35,928 bases of DNA. Source: Nostoc sp. 106C. GTDB taxonomy: Bacteria; Cyanobacteriota; Cyanobacteriia; Cyanobacteriales; Nostocaceae. Position 1 is the first letter of the stretch; the number at the start of each line of letters is the position of its first letter. This document shows, in pieces, positions 1-9,849 of the stretch. The translations under genes were made by a program, and so were the position numbers. The notes beneath the pieces were generated by a model that worked only from the letters and a program-made list of their open reading frames with translations, ran no database searches and was not told where the DNA came from. Where the stretch lies: the NCBI RefSeq assembly GCF_002154725.1, contig NZ_MTAW01000130.1, positions 1-35,928 on the forward strand, given 5' to 3'.

Positions 1-40
1 GTTTGAGCCAACTAGGGGAGTTAGTTATCAGGGTGCATCT
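1..40 (-). ncRNA. nsiR1: NsiR1-like sRNA copy A (3' end outside the window)
   Basis: The promoter is on the minus strand, with TCCGGA at 74-79 as the -35 element and TTAAAT at 44-49 as the -10 box, so transcription should start near base 40. The conserved start block and the left arm of the terminator (CTCCCCTAGTTGGCTC) are present. The right arm and T run lie beyond base 1. The start is inferred from promoter spacing, not measured. Confidence 0.75.
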
Positions 41-122
41 ACCATTTAACTGTTCTCTAGATAACTACCATCATCCGGATAAAATTCCTCAAGTATTGAG
101 TTTGTTGTAGTTTACCAAGCAT

Positions 123-179
123 AAAAAAGCCCCCAGTAGGCGTTAGCCCACCAGAGGAGTTAGTTATCAGGGTGCATCT
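123..179 (-). ncRNA. nsiR1: NsiR1-like sRNA copy B
   Basis: The -35 TCCGGA is at 213-218, the -10 TTAAAT at 183-188, and the T run of the terminator at 123-128. Its terminator differs from copies C and D. The short CCCCTAG stem is lost, but the sequence can form a longer 12-pair stem with several G-U pairs and a TAAC loop (GTGGGC pairing with GCCTAC at the core). The predicted RNA is about 57 nt, close to the roughly 60 nt known for NsiR1. Confidence 0.78.
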
Positions 180-258
180 ACCATTTAACTGTTCACGCAG
201 AAATAAGTAAGCTCCGGATGAAATTGTCACATTTATGATTATCAGTTGTGTCAACCGC

Positions 259-316
259 AAAAAAATCCCCTAGCGGGTTTGAGCCAACTAGGGGAGTTAG
301 TTATCAGGGTGCATCT
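259..316 (-). ncRNA. nsiR1: NsiR1-like sRNA copy C
   Basis: The -35 TCCGGA is at 350-355, the -10 TTAAAT at 320-325, and the terminator has a perfect 8-bp stem TCCCCTAG/CTAGGGGA followed by seven T residues (259-265 on the plus strand). This is the consensus copy. The 18-base block reading GGTAGATGCACCCTGATA in the RNA sense is shared with copies A, B and D. Confidence 0.85.
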
Positions 317-395
317 ACCATTTAACTGTTCACGCAGAAATAAGTAAGCTCCGGATGAAATTGTCACATTTATGATTATCAATTGTGTCAACCGC

Positions 396-453
396 AAAAA
401 AATCCCCTAGCGGGTTTAAGCCAACTAAGGGAGTTAGTTATCAGGGTGCATCT
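396..453 (-). ncRNA. nsiR1: NsiR1-like sRNA copy D
   Basis: The -35 TCCGGA is at 487-492, the -10 TTAGAT at 457-462, and the T run at 396-402. The terminator stem has one change relative to copy C (TCCCTTAG against CTAGGGGA) that keeps pairing through a G-U wobble. The region upstream of the -10 has diverged from copies B and C although the RNA body is conserved. Confidence 0.83.
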
Positions 454-636
454 ACCATCTAATTTTTCTCAGGTGAACTCCCATACTCCGGATAAATTTA
501 CTAAAATGTGTATTTTAGTTTAGTGTCAAACAAAATTTGAATGGATTTTAGCTGGACAGGAGACGAAGAGGGGGTGTTGAACCCTATACATCGCTTGAGA
601 ATACCTGTCGTGGAGTTTATTGCCATTTGCCAACAT

Positions 637-695
637 AAAAAAAATCCCCAAGTAGGCATTCGCCAACCAGGGGAGTCGAAGATCAAGGTGCATCT
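637..695 (-). ncRNA. nsiR1: NsiR1-like sRNA copy E, the copy nearest hetF
   Basis: The -35 TCCGGA is at 729-734, the -10 is TTTATT at 699-704, and the terminator T run is at 637-644. The GGTAGATGCACCTTGAT start block is kept with one change, but the following bases (CTTCGACTCCCC) differ from the other copies. The terminator can form a longer imperfect stem of the copy B type. It lies about 185 bases upstream of the hetF start and antisense to any hetF leader that begins upstream of it. Confidence 0.78.
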
Positions 696-728
696 ACCAA
701 TAAAGTGTTCTAGTTCAATGCCAGCCAA

Positions 729-746
729 TCCGGATAAAGTTATAAA
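729..746. promoter_or_regulatory. Divergent promoter region between NsiR1 copy E and hetF
   Basis: TCCGGA at 729-734 serves as the -35 element of copy E on the minus strand. It is a perfect palindrome. A TATAAA hexamer at 741-746 on the plus strand could be a -10 box for hetF, with a start near 753. TCCGGA at -35 is the hallmark of the DIF+ class of differentiation-dependent promoters in Anabaena. The hetF -10 assignment is inference. Confidence 0.45.
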
Positions 747-879
747 AGCTGAAAAGGTAAAATAACGAGAATTCAGAAACATTCAGTGGCAAGATGCATC
801 TAAGGTATCAGAAGAAGCGAAAAATCGACTTGAAACTTTCGCGTTTCAATCCAGATTTAGGAGGCGAATAGGAAAACTT

Positions 880-3372
880 GTGACCCAGGAATTTCACATT
901 TCCGTAACCCCAGTAGGGCAAAATGACTACTTGGTGCGGACGGAACAAGTCGCGCCTGGGGTGCCATTGGCAGAAGAACTGGTGACTTGGCCTGTAGCTG
1001 ATTGGTTAGCGGCTGCTGGGCATCTGATGAATGACCCGTTGAAGTCAGTGTTGCAAGGGGATGCGTTTGCAAGAAACTCTGTAAACCTAGTGGCGTTGGG
1101 TCAGCAACTTTATAATGCACTGTTTCAAGGCACTCTCAGAGATAGTTGGATTACCGCACAGGGTATTGCCCAGAACCACCAACAGGTATTGCGTTTACGC
1201 TTAGGGCTAAAAGACACTAGGTTAGCTCGTCTGCCTTGGGAAGTAATGCACGCAGGGGATCGTCCTTTAGCCACCGGGCCTTATGTCGCTTTTTCTCGCT
1301 ACCAAACTGGAATTTTGCCAGCTTCTCGTTTGCCATCGAAAAACATACCACAACCACTAGAAGAAGGTGGCGTCAAAGTATTGATGGTGATTGCATCTCC
1401 TACAGATCAAGCCCGTCTCGATCTACTCAAACATGAGGCGATCAAACTCCAAGCTGAGCTTAACCGTCATGTACCGCGAGTTGCTGAAAGTGGCAATTAT
1501 GTTCCAGATATAGAACTCACGTTGCTAGACCAACCAGGGCGAGAAGAATTGACGCAAGCCCTCGAGCAAGGACGATACCATGTCCTGCACTATTCCGGTC
1601 ATAGTAACCTAGGTGTCAACGGCGGTGAAATTTATCTGGTCAGTAGCAGAACTGGCTTAACAGAAACCTTAAGTGGGGACGATCTGGCCGGCTTGCTCGT
1701 CAACAATAATATCCAAATGGCTGTGTTTAACTCCTGTTTGGGAGCATACAGAGCTAACTCTGATACTACTGAAGAAACAGGAGAACGTAACCTCACAGAA
1801 AGCCTGGTGAAACGCGGACTGAGGAGCGTGTTAGCCATGTCAGAGCGAATTCCTGATGAAGTAGCGCTAACACTCACACAACTGTTTTACCGCAACCTGA
1901 ATCAGGGCTATCCTGTGGATTTGTGCGTAAGTCGGGTGCGCCAGGGTTTAATTTCTGCCTATGGTTCTCACCAGATGTACTGGGCGTTACCAACTCTTTA
2001 TCTGCAACCAGAATTTGACGGATTTCTCAGCCCAGAAATTCCTGAAAGTGCAGAACTATTGAATGAGTACAATCCAGCCTCAAGGTCAAATCCAACTGTA
2101 ATGTACTCTGCTGTGGCAGATGAAACTGATATGCCTTCAGCGATAGAAGACATGATCCCTTCTGGTTTAGCACGTGAATCTTCGGGGCTGGACTGGCTAG
2201 GAGAAGAGACTTGGGGCGATCTCGTGGATGAAATTGAGTATGATGACCCAACCTACGCAGAAGATTCAGCTCTTGTTTCAGATTTGTTTCGCCAACTAGA
2301 TAATCAAAAAGGAACTTCTGAACAATCTCCTATGAATGCAGAACTTGTGCCACAGGTAAATGAAAGTAACCTGCGGTCAAGACAAGTTTCTCAGGAGATG
2401 GCTGTACCGGATCAGGAAGCCAGCTTTTGGGAAGAAGATCCGATCGCATCAACTGAAACTTCAACAGATATTGCAGGTGATTGGCAGAATTCCTCTTTTG
2501 GAAACTCACAACAAGTCTCTTCAAAACGAAGCCACCGACGCAAAATTTTGCCTATTGTGGGTATGGTGGGAGCCAGTGCGATCGCAGTTGTTGTTGGTCT
2601 GAGTTGGTGGCAAAATCACCAAGTTTCAAGGTTACCTGACATCCCAGCAATTCCTACCCAGTCACTCACAGCCGAAAATCCTTCTCCCATCGATTTAAAG
2701 ACGGCTGCAACTGGAATTATCACCGCTACTGCTACTGAAAAATTGAGCCAAGGTGACTTGCAAGGTGGGCTTGAGGCTGTGGAAGAATTACTTAACCGTG
2801 GCGCACTTCCTTCAGCTCAAACGGCCCTAAATCTTGTGCCGCAAAAGCAAGCTAATAATCCCGCTGTCAACTTTTTTAAAGGAAGATTAGCTTGGCAGTT
2901 CGTCCAAATTAAAGATAAAAAATATAGCATTGATGATGCTCGTCGTTACTGGGAAAGTGCTGTAAAAGCTGACCCAGATTCGTTTTTGTACAATAATGCC
3001 TTGGGATTTGCTTACTATGCCGAAGAAAATTTAAATCGAGCTAATGACTCTTGGTTTAAGGCTTTGAACTTAGCTTTGAAACAACAAAACCTTGCTAGTA
3101 CTACACAAGTAGCAATAAAAGGAACTGCAATACCTAAGGATGCTTTAACTTCCTATGCTGGATTGGCTCTAGGTTTGTATAAATCTGCATATAATCAACC
3201 GAGCGATAAACAATCTCAATATCTAAGTGAAGCGATAAAACTGCGTCAAATGGTGATCGAGGATGATCCTGTAAATTTCCGAATAGATAAATTAAGTAAT
3301 AATTGGTTGTGGACAGAAAAAGCAATTGCTGATTGGCGATCGCTCCTTCAAGAAAAAATTCAGAAGCAGTAA
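880..3372 (+). CDS. hetF: HetF, CHAT-domain (caspase-like) protease for heterocyst differentiation
   Basis: The 830-aa protein has a CHAT (caspase HetF associated with TPRs) domain over about residues 90-390, with a His in the YSGHS motif (His241) and a Cys in the NSCLGA motif (Cys286) as the expected catalytic dyad. An acidic, low-complexity linker follows. One membrane segment lies at about 556-577 after a basic stretch KRSHRRK, and a TPR-like helical tail lies at about 610-830. The start is GTG with AGGAGG about 15 bases upstream. In Anabaena and N. punctiforme HetF is needed for heterocyst differentiation, influences HetR levels and cell division, and acts proteolytically. The name rests on length, CHAT domain and the NsiR1 array directly upstream, which is the known hetF arrangement. 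Confidence 0.92.
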   Translation: MTQEFHISVTPVGQNDYLVRTEQVAPGVPLAEELVTWPVADWLAAAGHLMNDPLKSVLQGDAFARNSVNLVALGQQLYNALFQGTLRDSWITAQGIAQNHQQVLRLRLGLKDTRLARLPWEVMHAGDRPLATGPYVAFSRYQTGILPASRLPSKNIPQPLEEGGVKVLMVIASPTDQARLDLLKHEAIKLQAELNRHVPRVAESGNYVPDIELTLLDQPGREELTQALEQGRYHVLHYSGHSNLGVNGGEIYLVSSRTGLTETLSGDDLAGLLVNNNIQMAVFNSCLGAYRANSDTTEETGERNLTESLVKRGLRSVLAMSERIPDEVALTLTQLFYRNLNQGYPVDLCVSRVRQGLISAYGSHQMYWALPTLYLQPEFDGFLSPEIPESAELLNEYNPASRSNPTVMYSAVADETDMPSAIEDMIPSGLARESSGLDWLGEETWGDLVDEIEYDDPTYAEDSALVSDLFRQLDNQKGTSEQSPMNAELVPQVNESNLRSRQVSQEMAVPDQEASFWEEDPIASTETSTDIAGDWQNSSFGNSQQVSSKRSHRRKILPIVGMVGASAIAVVVGLSWWQNHQVSRLPDIPAIPTQSLTAENPSPIDLKTAATGIITATATEKLSQGDLQGGLEAVEELLNRGALPSAQTALNLVPQKQANNPAVNFFKGRLAWQFVQIKDKKYSIDDARRYWESAVKADPDSFLYNNALGFAYYAEENLNRANDSWFKALNLALKQQNLASTTQVAIKGTAIPKDALTSYAGLALGLYKSAYNQPSDKQSQYLSEAIKLRQMVIEDDPVNFRIDKLSNNWLWTEKAIADWRSLLQEKIQKQ

Positions 3373-3783: not shown

Positions 3784-4578
3784 ATGTTCGGCGGACTTAC
3801 TGGTTTAACAGATTCTAAAGGCACAGATTGGGGAGAGCGGATGCTCAACACAGTCGCCAGCCAAACGATTCGCCACCTGTTTACCCAAAGCGAGTCAGTA
3901 GAAGTCTTTGTGCGCTGCTATCCCTCCAGCAAACTGTTGCAAGGCAGCATTGATAGTTTCAAGATGAGTGGACGTGGCTTAGTCATCCGTAGAGATTTTG
4001 CGGTAGAGGAAATGTCCTTTGAAACGGATGCAGTTGCCATTGATTTCGGCTCGGTTTTAAGTGGCAAATTAACTCTAAAACAACCCACCCAAGCGATCGC
4101 TCAGGTAATTTTATCAGAAGCAGGGATCAACCAGGCTTTTAATGCCGAACTGGTCAGAAAGCGTCTTGTCAACCTGAATTTGCCAGCCTTAACGGCGCTA
4201 TCGGGTGGAAAACCCGTGTCTTTTCCTGAGATTCAGGTAGAATTATTGCCAGAAAATCGCTTGCGGATTTTGGCAAAAGCTGATTTAGATAATGGCGAAC
4301 TCGTACCCTTGAATATGACTGTCAGTCTAGCTGTAGAACGGCGAAGACGGGTTTCTTTCCAAAATCCTCAAATTGAACTTGACCTTGTACCAGAAGCACA
4401 ACGGGAAATATCGCGAACATTGAGTTTAGCACTGGTAGAAATTTTAGATAATATGGTCGACTTGGATCGCTTTGATCTCGATGGAGTGAAGATGCGACTC
4501 AACCGTTTAGAAACTGAAGGTCAAAAGTTAATTTTCAGTGGATATGCTGAAATCGAGCGTATACCTAGTAGTTCTTGA
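3784..4578 (+). CDS. DUF2993 (LmeA-like) protein
   Basis: The protein has the typical cyanobacterial DUF2993 opening MFGGLTGLTDSKGTDWGERM followed by the beta-rich lipid-binding-like fold of that family. The frame is open from a TTG at 3742, but I choose ATG 3784 (264 aa) because the family begins at this methionine. Proteins of this family in actinobacteria (LmeA) bind phospholipids and act in envelope lipoglycan synthesis. The cyanobacterial role is not known. There is no signal peptide or membrane segment. It sits alone between hetF and a bidirectional terminator, so it could be read from its own promoter or by read-through from hetF. Confidence 0.75.
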   Translation: MFGGLTGLTDSKGTDWGERMLNTVASQTIRHLFTQSESVEVFVRCYPSSKLLQGSIDSFKMSGRGLVIRRDFAVEEMSFETDAVAIDFGSVLSGKLTLKQPTQAIAQVILSEAGINQAFNAELVRKRLVNLNLPALTALSGGKPVSFPEIQVELLPENRLRILAKADLDNGELVPLNMTVSLAVERRRRVSFQNPQIELDLVPEAQREISRTLSLALVEILDNMVDLDRFDLDGVKMRLNRLETEGQKLIFSGYAEIERIPSSS

Positions 4579-4856: not shown

Positions 4857-6248
4857 TTACCGACCAATACCTACATATTGGAAACCAGCTCTTACTAAGG
4901 TTTCAGGATTCAGGAAGTTACGACCATCAATAATCACTGGGTGATTCATCAGTGTTGCCATCTTCACGTAGTCCAGAGTATTAAACTGCTGCCATTCAGT
5001 TACCAATACCAAAGCATCGCAGCCGTCGGCTAGTCTTTCAGCATCGGTTTCCACCAGCACGCCGGAAAGACCATGACGTAAACCAGTTTGTGAGACAATC
5101 GGGTCGTAGGCTTTAACTTTGGCTCCCAATCGGTTCAGCTGTTCAATCAGGTTAAGTGCTGGAGCATCGCGTAAATCGTCGGTATCTGGCTTAAAGGTCA
5201 GACCAAGTAAACCTACTGTTTTGCCTTTGAGGATTTTTAAGACTTGCTGGAGTTTTTCTAAAGCAATCAGCCGTTGGCGTTCATTGACGCTGACAGCTGA
5301 TTTCAGCAACTGGGCTTCATAGCCATAGTCATCAGCAGTGTGAATGAGAGCTGCCACATCTTTGGGGAAGCAGGAACCACCCCAACCAATACCAGCTTGT
5401 AAGAACTTGTTACCAATCCGAGAGTCTAAACCAATGCCTTTTGCTACTTGGGTGACATCAGCACCAACGCGATCGCAAATGTTAGCAACTTCGTTAATAA
5501 AACTAATTTTGGTTGCTAAAAAGGCATTAGCAGCATATTTAATCATTTCTGCTGAACTAAGATCTGTTACCAGCACTGGCACAGGTGGTAAAGATTTATC
5601 CTCAGCGTACTGGCGTTCCACGATGGGAGTATATAGTTCTTTCATTAAAGCGATCGCTTTTTGGCTATTACCTCCCAAGACAATGCGATCGGGGTTAAAG
5701 GTGTCGTATACTGCTGATCCTTCGCGTAAAAACTCTGGATTGCTGACTACATCAAAGTGAGATGCAATCTCTGGCAATTTATCCTCAATTGCAACTCCAC
5801 CTGCTGGTACTAGTGTTTTTTGGCGTTCAGCAATGCCATCCAAAACAATCATTCTTACCCAGTCACCAGAGCCGATAGGCACTGTAGATTTATTGATGAT
5901 TACCTTATAACCACCGTTGAGATGGTTCCCAATACCACGCGCTACAGCTTCCACATAACGTGTATCACTTTCACCAGTTGGTAAAGGTGGTGTTCCTACA
6001 GCGATAAAGAGAATTTCTCCGTGAGCGACTCCAGCAGCCAGATCTGTGGTGAATTCGATTTTCCCTGCATGAATGGCAGTTTGCATAATTTCCGAGAGTC
6101 CCGGCTCGAAAATTGGTGACTGCCCAGACTTCATTAACTTGACTTTTTCTTCGTTATTATCTACACAAATAACATCGTGTCCGATGTGAGCTAAGCAAGC
6201 GCCTGTAACCAAACCAACGTAGCCAGTACCAATTACGCAAACACGCAT
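4857..6248 (-). CDS. ugd: UDP-glucose 6-dehydrogenase
   Basis: The enzyme oxidises UDP-glucose to UDP-glucuronate with two NAD+. The N-terminal Rossmann fold has GTGYVGLVTG at residues 7-16. The catalytic cysteine is Cys293 in GWGGSCFPKD, and the C-terminal domain has the TFKPDTDDLRDAPAL signature. The 463-aa length is usual. It starts at ATG 6248, 142 bases downstream of the UDP-glucuronate decarboxylase gene on the same strand, so the two probably form one unit giving UDP-glucuronate and UDP-xylose for exopolysaccharide or envelope glycans. A strong terminator follows at 4794-4827. Confidence 0.95.
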   Translation of the reverse strand: MRVCVIGTGYVGLVTGACLAHIGHDVICVDNNEEKVKLMKSGQSPIFEPGLSEIMQTAIHAGKIEFTTDLAAGVAHGEILFIAVGTPPLPTGESDTRYVEAVARGIGNHLNGGYKVIINKSTVPIGSGDWVRMIVLDGIAERQKTLVPAGGVAIEDKLPEIASHFDVVSNPEFLREGSAVYDTFNPDRIVLGGNSQKAIALMKELYTPIVERQYAEDKSLPPVPVLVTDLSSAEMIKYAANAFLATKISFINEVANICDRVGADVTQVAKGIGLDSRIGNKFLQAGIGWGGSCFPKDVAALIHTADDYGYEAQLLKSAVSVNERQRLIALEKLQQVLKILKGKTVGLLGLTFKPDTDDLRDAPALNLIEQLNRLGAKVKAYDPIVSQTGLRHGLSGVLVETDAERLADGCDALVLVTEWQQFNTLDYVKMATLMNHPVIIDGRNFLNPETLVRAGFQYVGIGR

Positions 6249-6390: not shown

Positions 6391-7341
6391 TCAGAAGACT
6401 AGCTGCTTTGTATCAGTTCTAAGCCGATTGCGGAAATCTTCTATTGTCAGTTTTAACCCTTGTTCTAGCGGAACGGTAGGTTCCCAATTTAACAAGGTTT
6501 TGGCCTTTGTGATATCTGGACGACGACGGCGTGGATCGTCAGAAGGTAGTGGCTCAAATTTTATCTTGGCATCTGGGTTAATCTGGTTTTGCACTGCCTG
6601 TGCCAATTCCAAAATTGTGTATTCATCAGGATTTCCCAGATTCACAGGACCAACATAGTCGCTATTCATTAGCCGGATAAATCCTTCCACTAAGTCAGAG
6701 ACGTAGCAAAAACTACGGGTTTGCGAACCATCACCGTAGACTGTTAAAGGTTCACCCCGTAGAGCTTGAACTATAAAGTTGCTGACTACGCGACCATCGT
6801 TTTCCAACATCCGAGGACCATAGGTATTGAAGATACGTACAACTCGAATATCAACTTTATTTTGTCTGTAATAATCAAAAGCTAAAGTCTCAGCAATGCG
6901 TTTGCCTTCGTCGTAGCATGAACGCAGTCCAATTGGATTAACACTACCTCTATACTCTTCAGTTTGGGGATGAACTTCTGGATCGCCGTACACTTCACTA
7001 GTTGAAGCTAAGAAAAATCTGGCTTTCACACGTTTAGCCAGTCCCAACATATTTAGCGTCCCCATCACATTAGTTTTCACAGTTTTGACGGGATTGTACT
7101 GATAATGTACTGGAGATGCAGGACAAGCCAAATGATAAATTTGATCCACTTCTAACCTAATAGGTTCGGTGATGTCGTGGCGGATGAGTTCAAAGTATGG
7201 ATGATCCATCCATTTAAGAATGTTGCGCTTATTACCTGTATAGAAATTATCTAAGCAAATGATTTCATGCCCATCACCTATTAGTCGGTCGATCAGATGG
7301 GAACCAAGAAACCCTGCACCGCCCGTCACTAAAATTCTCAT
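6391..7341 (-). CDS. UDP-glucuronate decarboxylase (UDP-xylose synthase), SDR family
   Basis: The 316-aa extended short-chain dehydrogenase has the NAD-binding motif [10 protein letters not shown] at residues 6-15, Ser/Thr in STSEVYGDP and the YxxxK pair Tyr143/Lys147 in SCYDEGKR. The sequence around [15 protein letters not shown] is typical of UXS enzymes, which convert UDP-glucuronate to UDP-xylose with a tightly held NAD+. A GGGAAAG ribosome site precedes ATG 7341. It is the first gene of a likely two-gene unit with ugd, so the second enzyme of the pathway is encoded first. A dTDP-glucose dehydratase is less likely given this motif set. Confidence 0.9.
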
Positions 7342-7713: not shown

Positions 7714-9849
7714 TTACATAGTAAATGTGGTACTAGGAACTCCTGTCGGTAGAACTACTGTTTGCGTGCGCTGTGGTTCCCCAAGCATGACAATAGAGCA
7801 GGTGAGTTGACTAGCCAACTGAGTTGTAACATCACTAATAGCTAAACCACCAGGACTGGTACGATTGCGTATAAAAGGTAATACAACTAAATCATATAAT
7901 CGTGCTGCCTGTAAAATCGCTTGAGCTACATTTTCATGGGCGATTATTTGAATTTCTGGTGGATTTGGCAAAGCCAATTTAGACACTACTAGAGCAAGAT
8001 GCGATCGCCTAGCAGCAATTTTACTAGAACTGGTACGTCGCTCGCAGACATTCAAGACAGTCACTTGAGCTTGATTAGTATCTGCCAAGATTTGGGCAAA
8101 ATGCACAGGCTGCAACGTTGGTGCCATTAAGTTTTCTATGGGAACTAAGATCCGTTGGATTTTCTTAGGAGCATCTACTAAACGGGTAACCGCTACAGGA
8201 CAGTGGGATGCCCAAAGAACGTTATCGATTACGTTACCAAATAAACGCGCTCTTAAACCAGTGCGTTTACCCCAACCCATAATAATCAAACTAGCTTTTT
8301 GTTCGCGAGCTGCTCTGCTAATTCCTTGAGCAAAAGCATCATCAATGCGTAGCAAAGGTTCTGCTCCCACGCCCAAGACTCGGCTTTGTGCTGTAGCTTT
8401 TGCCAATAATCGCTCACTCCGCTGCAAAGATGCTTCTAACTGTGGTGCATCCATATGCGCAGCAGCAGTAGCGATCGCTAAAGGTATAATTCTGCCATTT
8501 GCTTGGCGTGCTAATAATGTTGCCAGTTCAATCAGATACTGCTGAGTTTGGGGATTGTAGATGGGTACAACTATAGTGAAAGCGGTGCTAATTTCTTCTA
8601 TTTTTGGCTCCGGTTGGCTTGATGGTGCTGGCTTTGTAGCGGCGGATGAAGCCAACCCAACAGCTACCCGACTAGTAACCAACGGTCCCAAGGTTGATGT
8701 AACGAGCATCACAGCAATAATGCTATTTAATACTTCAGATGACAATAACCCAGTCCGATACCCGACTAATGTTGCTGCTAACGTTGTTCCCACCTGAGGA
8801 ACTGATAGCGACCACATTGTTAGCATTTCCTGCCAATTGTAGCGGTATAACAGTTTCGCTAACAAAGCTGCAATAAATTTGCTGGCAATCAAACCAAACA
8901 CAAACAGGAGCGTCAATTGAAGATTAGTAGTACTTTTGATAAAAGTGGGTACATCGATCAGCAAACCAAAATTAACAAAGAAAATAGGAATGAATAGCAC
9001 ACTGCCAACAAACACCACTTTTTCTTTGACTGGTCCTTCGCCCAAAACTTCATTGACGGCCAAACCTGCTAAAAAGGCTCCAATAATTTTTTCTACCCCA
9101 ATTAATTGAGCGCCTACAGCAGCTAGAAACACAGTCAGCAGCACAAATAAAAATTGGTTGCCCTCTTCACCTCCAGACCGCCGAAAAAATTCTTTGCCTA
9201 CCCAATCAAAGCCGACTAAAACCGCAACAGAGTAAATAGTTAACCAACCCAACAAAGTTAGTAGCTTTGCTAAGCTGAATACTCCACCGTTGGAGGAAGC
9301 TACACACACAGTTAATATCAGCAGAGCGCCAATATCGGTAACAACCTTGGCTCCAATGGTAACGGTAACGGCTTCATTTTTCACAACTCCTAGGCGATTA
9401 ATAATTGGATATGCCAAGAGAGTATGGGAGGCGAACAATGAGCCAATTAATATTGATGTTATCCAACCAAAGCCAAAAATTCGCCCTAACAAGCTTCCCA
9501 TGACTAGGGGAAGGCTAAAAGTGAAGGTGCCAAAACCTAAGGAGCGATTTTTCTGACGATAGAACTGCTCTAAGTCAACTTCTAGTCCTGCTACGAACAT
9601 TAAGTAAACTAGCCCAATATCTGCTAGCAGGTTCATGCTTTCTGATTCAGTTTGGAATAAATTCCAGCCTGAGGGACCAAGTACTACCCCAGATAAAACC
9701 AAACCTACTAATCCTGGTAGTCTGAGTCGCTCGAACAGAATCGGCACTACTAAGATAACCACCAGCAAAATAGCAAAGGGAACAATTGGTTCCTTGCCAA
9801 GAACTTGGGAGGTTGGTTCCAGTGCAAGAACTTGTGAAATGAGTTCCAT
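7714..9849 (-). CDS. CPA2-family cation/proton antiporter fused to two universal stress protein domains
   Basis: The 711-aa membrane protein has about 12 hydrophobic segments over residues 22-400, with the buried Thr171-Asp172 pair in KVVTDIGALL typical of ion-binding sites in this family. The soluble tail holds two tandem USP domains, about 423-555 and 563-690. The first keeps a nucleotide-binding-like MGWGKRTGLRARLFG stretch. The second is more degenerate. Such proteins exchange Na+ or K+ for H+ across the plasma or thylakoid membrane, and the USP tails may sense nucleotides. The substrate cannot be told from sequence alone. It starts at ATG 9849 and stands apart from both flanking genes. 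Confidence 0.88.
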   Translation of the reverse strand: MELISQVLALEPTSQVLGKEPIVPFAILLVVILVVPILFERLRLPGLVGLVLSGVVLGPSGWNLFQTESESMNLLADIGLVYLMFVAGLEVDLEQFYRQKNRSLGFGTFTFSLPLVMGSLLGRIFGFGWITSILIGSLFASHTLLAYPIINRLGVVKNEAVTVTIGAKVVTDIGALLILTVCVASSNGGVFSLAKLLTLLGWLTIYSVAVLVGFDWVGKEFFRRSGGEEGNQFLFVLLTVFLAAVGAQLIGVEKIIGAFLAGLAVNEVLGEGPVKEKVVFVGSVLFIPIFFVNFGLLIDVPTFIKSTTNLQLTLLFVFGLIASKFIAALLAKLLYRYNWQEMLTMWSLSVPQVGTTLAATLVGYRTGLLSSEVLNSIIAVMLVTSTLGPLVTSRVAVGLASSAATKPAPSSQPEPKIEEISTAFTIVVPIYNPQTQQYLIELATLLARQANGRIIPLAIATAAAHMDAPQLEASLQRSERLLAKATAQSRVLGVGAEPLLRIDDAFAQGISRAAREQKASLIIMGWGKRTGLRARLFGNVIDNVLWASHCPVAVTRLVDAPKKIQRILVPIENLMAPTLQPVHFAQILADTNQAQVTVLNVCERRTSSSKIAARRSHLALVVSKLALPNPPEIQIIAHENVAQAILQAARLYDLVVLPFIRNRTSPGGLAISDVTTQLASQLTCSIVMLGEPQRTQTVVLPTGVPSTTFTM

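Follow-up and report, generated by a model that had tools for sequence, protein, structure and literature searches.

Background

In PCC 7120, the small RNA NsiR1 is encoded by an array of 12 copies and its expression is heterocyst-specific (PMC9045159). Excerpts of the same paper cite regulation by NsiR1 of hetF, in the form of inhibition of hetF translation by NsiR1.1, and of the hetP-like gene alr3234. Published work on the effect in cis in PCC 7120 is mixed rather than unanimous. In the excerpted text of PMC8406250, replacement of the nsiR1.1 -10 box, or deletion of nsiR1.1, changed hetF-gfp fluorescence little and thus the effect in cis on hetF may be small. Nodularia spumigena CCY9414, a member of another genus which is likened here by description and not by sequence, has 12 short repeats upstream of hetF (PMC3610870). 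An NsiR1-like sRNA of 57 nt, RNA162, comes from Limnospira indica PCC 8005, a cyanobacterium without heterocysts (PMC8400943); at least one occurrence of NsiR1 outside heterocyst formers has thus already been published. RNA162 is reported as one expressed RNA, and no hetF or lgt-cobM locus is described with it in the excerpts of that source.

The window analysed here is the whole stretch of 35,928 nucleotides from Nostoc sp. 106C. It is contig C19, one of the 240 contigs of genome G000, and it starts within an array of repeats. As in PCC 7120, these are tandem sRNA genes of about 60 nt with individual DIF1 elements, on the strand opposite hetF, and the divergent hetF-proximal copy is antisense to the presumed hetF leader (compare the excerpts of PMC9045159 and PMC8406250). 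With a probability of about 0.88, the repeats are the right-hand half of an NsiR1 array of the type found in heterocyst-forming cyanobacteria, with sRNAs that function in cis and in trans as in PCC 7120. The array itself is of a known kind and adds one more strain for a well-studied regulator. Less expected were a single-copy sibling that shares the seed, located between lgt and cobM, and the presence of both loci in other families of the order.

NsiR1 units and putative promoters in the window

Five units are present on the minus strand and all of them match the Rfam family RF02399 (NsiR1) at 42.7 to 73.4 bits, above the family cut-off of 39, which upholds the identification made in the first-pass annotation. 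The leftmost unit (1-44, 42.7 bits) has lost its 3' part at the contig end but is whole on contig C162 (C162:6873-6934). Full units are located at 122-183 (62 nt, 70.3 bits, fold -20.3 kcal/mol), 259-320 (73.4 bits, fold -19.6), 396-457 (68.6 bits, fold -16.9) and 638-699 (57.7 bits). The last of these is the divergent, NsiR1.1-like copy proximal to hetF and is antisense to the presumed hetF leader. The unit at 122-183 has the 5' seed TGGTAGATGCACC and a terminator-like 3' stem with a T-run; folds of all four full units show a stem and a T-run. A simple terminator scan gave one site in 1-900 against 0.8 in shuffles and so was not above shuffles. RF02399 was over the cut-off in none of 14 control genomes, with sub-cut-off matches in E. 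coli controls and, in most searches, in Thermotoga maritima too.

The DIF1 element TCCGGA is found on the minus strand at 74-79, 213-218, 350-355, 487-492 and 729-734, as the -35 element of units 1-44, 122-183, 259-320, 396-457 and 638-699, respectively. It begins 35 nt ahead of the first NsiR1-match base in all five. The five TCCGGA elements of the first-pass annotation are confirmed, and each is a putative promoter element of one unit. The near-constant period of 137 to 139 nt that it gave holds for the first three spacings (139, 137 and 137) but not for the last, so that the final unit, 242 nt on, is out of period. Nor are the RNA bodies equal, as had been supposed: the four full units are only 76 to 97% identical. 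Bodies 259-320 and 396-457 share 97% identity, 122-183 is 81 to 82% identical to these two, and 638-699 is 76 to 79% identical to the other three. When taken from the first position of the RF02399 model, 5' ends fall at 44, 183, 320, 457 and 699, some 4 nt to the right of those first proposed (near 40, 179, 316, 453 and 695). The count of the TCCGGA hexamer was also considered as evidence and rejected: the window has 6, where 3.66 would be expected, and 19 of 100 shuffles reached that number. The weight of evidence for the array comes instead from the periodic repeat and the covariance-model scores.

Each intact unit is probably a separate small gene, with DIF1 at -35, an RNA of about 60 nt and a terminator-like 3' end. 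The 5' region of this RNA, beginning UGGUAGAUGCACC, is predicted to be largely unpaired. Expression, regulators and targets in this strain would follow those published for PCC 7120: in cells that are turning into heterocysts, the units would be activated by way of HetR and HetZ. The proximal copy (638-699), a perfect antisense of the presumed hetF leader, would then repress hetF translation, and the other copies, having the same seed, may work in trans, with a weaker effect on hetF and with further target mRNAs, alr3234 for example. Multiple copies would provide dosage and their sequence variants would be free to diverge in target.

hetF and the NsiR1.1-like unit in its presumed leader

hetF (880-3372, plus strand, GTG start) encodes a protein with a CHAT domain (Pfam, 98.3 bits) and a weak TPR match, which scores 1527.6 bits against the HetF equivalog of NCBIfam (NF045509, cut-off 1200). 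The open reading frame and these matches confirm that a CHAT-domain hetF adjoins the array, which lies upstream of it on the opposite strand. Downstream of hetF, the minus strand of the window encodes a nucleotide-sugar dehydrogenase (4857-6248) and relatives of an NAD-dependent sugar epimerase or dehydratase (6391-7341) and of a CPA2-type cation:proton antiporter (7714-9849), the latter two with matches below the curated cut-off.

On the strand opposite hetF, the unit at 638-699 occupies the stretch from 181 to 242 nt upstream of the GTG start. As hetF transcription starts at -256 in PCC 7120 (PMC8406250), the NsiR1.1 block would, by analogy, fall inside the hetF mRNA leader. The possibility that the leader encodes an N-terminal extension of HetF was rejected: among 108 leaders translated upward, many reach a stop in less than 90 nt and an in-frame ATG occurs in only three.

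The array and its order beside hetF are conserved. RF02399 is over the cut-off in all 217 genomes of the family, and 214 of these have a hetF match. In 88 of 125 hetF leaders (122 taken from the matches listed plus those of G033, G156 and G176, with places on short contigs among those left out), the seed complement (≤ 1 mismatch) is at -206 to -185. The nearest seed complement is elsewhere within 1.3 kb in a further 25, and there is none in the examined stretch of 12, including G034 and G162 with < 400 nt upstream. A distance of 192 or 193 nt from the nearest seed complement to the hetF start is found in 55 of the 125. TCCGGA follows the seed complement at an offset of 30 to 31 in 87 of the 88 leaders, and their alignment reveals strong conservation of the NsiR1.1 block. 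Among members of the window's genus, G000, G012 and G017 have this distance at 193 nt, but in the five others it is 304 to 371 nt. G177, a 3.8-Mb one-contig genome with HetR and NsiR1 matches, has no hetF match at 1e-100.

Genomes in which hetF is unlinked from NsiR1

In genus g38, hetF starts ATGGAATTT in nine leaders (G156, G157, G158 and G161-G166). Of these, only the leader of G165 has a seed complement in the examined stretch, at -1220 and with one mismatch; the other eight have none. In G159 and G160, also of g38, hetF is linked to NsiR1. G157 has its main array at 4.94 Mb, whereas its hetF lies at 5.55 Mb. Since hetF is away from NsiR1 units in such genomes, the antisense arrangement is dispensable there. 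Genomes whose hetF has departed from its NsiR1 neighbour are natural tests of action in cis versus in trans. In G156 (C1:2196560-2199047) the hetF match is in two pieces in different frames, perhaps from a broken gene.

These genomes bear on a rival reading, in which the array works mainly in trans to provide dosage, stands beside hetF for historical reasons and has a minor cis-antisense effect. In G003, about 2.95 Mb separates hetF from a second array, which has exact TCCGGA elements and adjoins genes of the type found on C162, as would suit such a device. The main array of G157 is likewise apart from hetF, although most promoters in that stretch are TCCGGT, with TCCGGA present once, at the NsiR1.1-like unit. 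The slight effect of nsiR1.1 on hetF-gfp (PMC8406250, in excerpt) points in the same direction. However, in 88 of 125 leaders NsiR1.1 has retained a distinct sequence at an almost constant distance from hetF, and inhibition of hetF translation by NsiR1.1 is cited in the excerpts of PMC9045159. We consider a mainly trans-acting array rather unlikely, although it is the strongest competitor of an array acting in both cis and trans.

Continuation of the array on contig C162

The expectation that the array runs on leftward was borne out. Contig C162 (6945 bases) ends with six further NsiR1 units on the same (minus) strand, three of which are above the RF02399 cut-off and three below. Its last 55 bases are identical to the first 55 of the window, which would fit two contigs meeting at an assembly k-mer. 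When C162 and the window are joined in the simplest way, the copy number, which the first-pass annotation left to be counted by extension to the left, comes to ten, although assembly may have merged identical units into one. Seven of the ten have TCCGGA unchanged at -35 and no more than one mismatch in the seed. The other three (C162:6208, 6481 and 6613) are decayed, with changes in both the seed and the DIF site, and are those below the Rfam cut-off. No two of the ten joined bodies are identical, unlike those of PCC 7120, where seven of the 12 copies are.

It is very unlikely that the C162 and window halves are separate arrays in G000 rather than one broken array. Separated units do exist, in G003 and G157, but the contig ends overlap exactly over the 55 nt, and the C162 genes are followed by NsiR1 units and then hetF, all together, in G018 (of the same genus), G072 and G128. 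Slightly less credible still is that the repeats matter mainly as DNA, either as a TCCGGA cluster titrating a DIF1-binding factor or as a recombination-prone repeat with RNAs as by-products, since, for all that seven intact TCCGGA sites are close together and that G003 and G157 have units at two places, one of them beside C162-type genes as if the array had split, decayed bodies accompany decayed DIF sites, covariance-model scores are high and RNA function is published (PMC9045159, in excerpt).

Siblings at the lgt-cobM and exoD loci

Besides the array of NsiR1 genes, G000 carries related units elsewhere. A single-copy sibling (L119) is located between lgt and cobM (C169:119360-119410, minus strand; RF02399 51.2 bits). 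Its first 13 bases are the same as those of the array units and TCCGGA is at -34. In ten of ten relatives there is an RF02399 match of 51 to 52 nt at ≥ 49 bits, with the neighbours checked by protein in G018 and G128. Matches at the DNA level were obtained in 23 of 23 genomes of the family and in eight of 16 from other families, where some of the matches are to other units. Named genomes contain an exact 24-mer of this sibling at 116 places or more. Of the 80 such loci that were examined, 79 have TCCGGA at -34 or -35 and 79 a terminator-like end, and cobM and lgt matches are found in 76 and 68, respectively. The lgt-cobM sibling was not found in the searched literature naming NsiR1, including word searches of PMC10287535 and PMC4734099, which is no proof of novelty.

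A third sibling (L118) lies beside an exoD gene (C133:2208-2264, minus strand) and, at 35.8 bits, is below the RF02399 cut-off. NsiR1 units near the same exoD gene are also present in G128, G003 and G157. G003 has the -35 element of this sibling unaltered, G157 has it unaltered too but shifted to -38, and in G000 and G128 one base of it differs.

Predicted pairing with the hetF leader

In duplex predictions against the hetF leader, the 26 nt at the 5' end of NsiR1.1 gave -49.2 kcal/mol at the antisense block. The corresponding 26 nt of the three other window units tested gave -29.4 kcal/mol, and the two siblings outside the array -32.6 and -29.4 kcal/mol, all at the same block. For each sRNA, none of 200 shuffles was as good. 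This predicted pairing follows from the shared seed and indicates that action on hetF is possible, not that it takes place. The single-copy siblings, too, may act on hetF in trans, as all of them share the 5' sequence whose complement is in the hetF leader.

An 8-nt seed complement, TGCATCTA, at 794-801 (plus strand) in the hetF leader is a possible second pairing site. Predicted pairing downstream of the antisense block was no better than with shuffled seeds (16 to 115 of 200 as good, depending on the sRNA) and the site is retained as a weak lead. GCATCTA occurs in 74 of the 88 leaders. It is also at -60 in all nine replaced hetF leaders of g38, which is only suggestive since a 7-mer of this kind would turn up in 175 nt by chance with a probability of about 0.07 (calculated by hand) and the leaders share descent.

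A genome-wide scan for the seed complement (≤ 1 mismatch) returned 61 matches, some of them in the NsiR1 units themselves, whereas the reversed pattern gave 13. Inspection by eye of 21 places outside known units led to no claim of a target. Two exact seed complements (L368, C31:18135, and L369, C126:71032) are inside a shared longer repeat, and no DIF-like element was found with them.

NsiR1 and HetR in other families

To our knowledge, heterocyst formers all belong to one GTDB family. Sixteen other families of the order were sampled by a single genome each. Of these 16 genomes, nine had RF02399 over the cut-off and eight had HetR (PF03574). NsiR1 was detected in all eight genomes with HetR and in one of the eight without (Fisher P = 0.0014, kinship ignored). 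It is upstream of hetF on the opposite strand in G220, G221, G224, G227 and G230, and the sibling is between lgt and cobM in G217, G218, G219, G220, G227 and G230.

We would give even odds that NsiR1, rather than a single heterocyst-specific array, is an older family of sRNAs, with several loci and a shared seed, in multicellular cyanobacteria that carry HetR. Two or more loci with DIF1 promoters (hetF-divergent and lgt-cobM) would then predate heterocysts, tandem amplification would have come later and separately at each, and the siblings would act on hetF in trans. If this is true, the lgt-cobM sibling and the NsiR1 of other HetR-bearing families would make NsiR1 part of an older HetR programme, which could be tested in genetically tractable filamentous strains that do not form heterocysts.

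The HetR-less exception is G224, in which NsiR1 units lie beside a hetF relative (L414, G224:C200) and the genome has no HetR match. Only TCCCGA or TCCTGA was seen at the four units read. No rule follows from G224, as mismatched DIF elements occur in HetR-bearing genomes too (three of nine units in G217, two of four in G219, the two that were read in G221, one of four in G225 and one of three in G227). G219 also has four tandem copies of the lgt-cobM sibling (L415, G219:C71, about 4018-4318).
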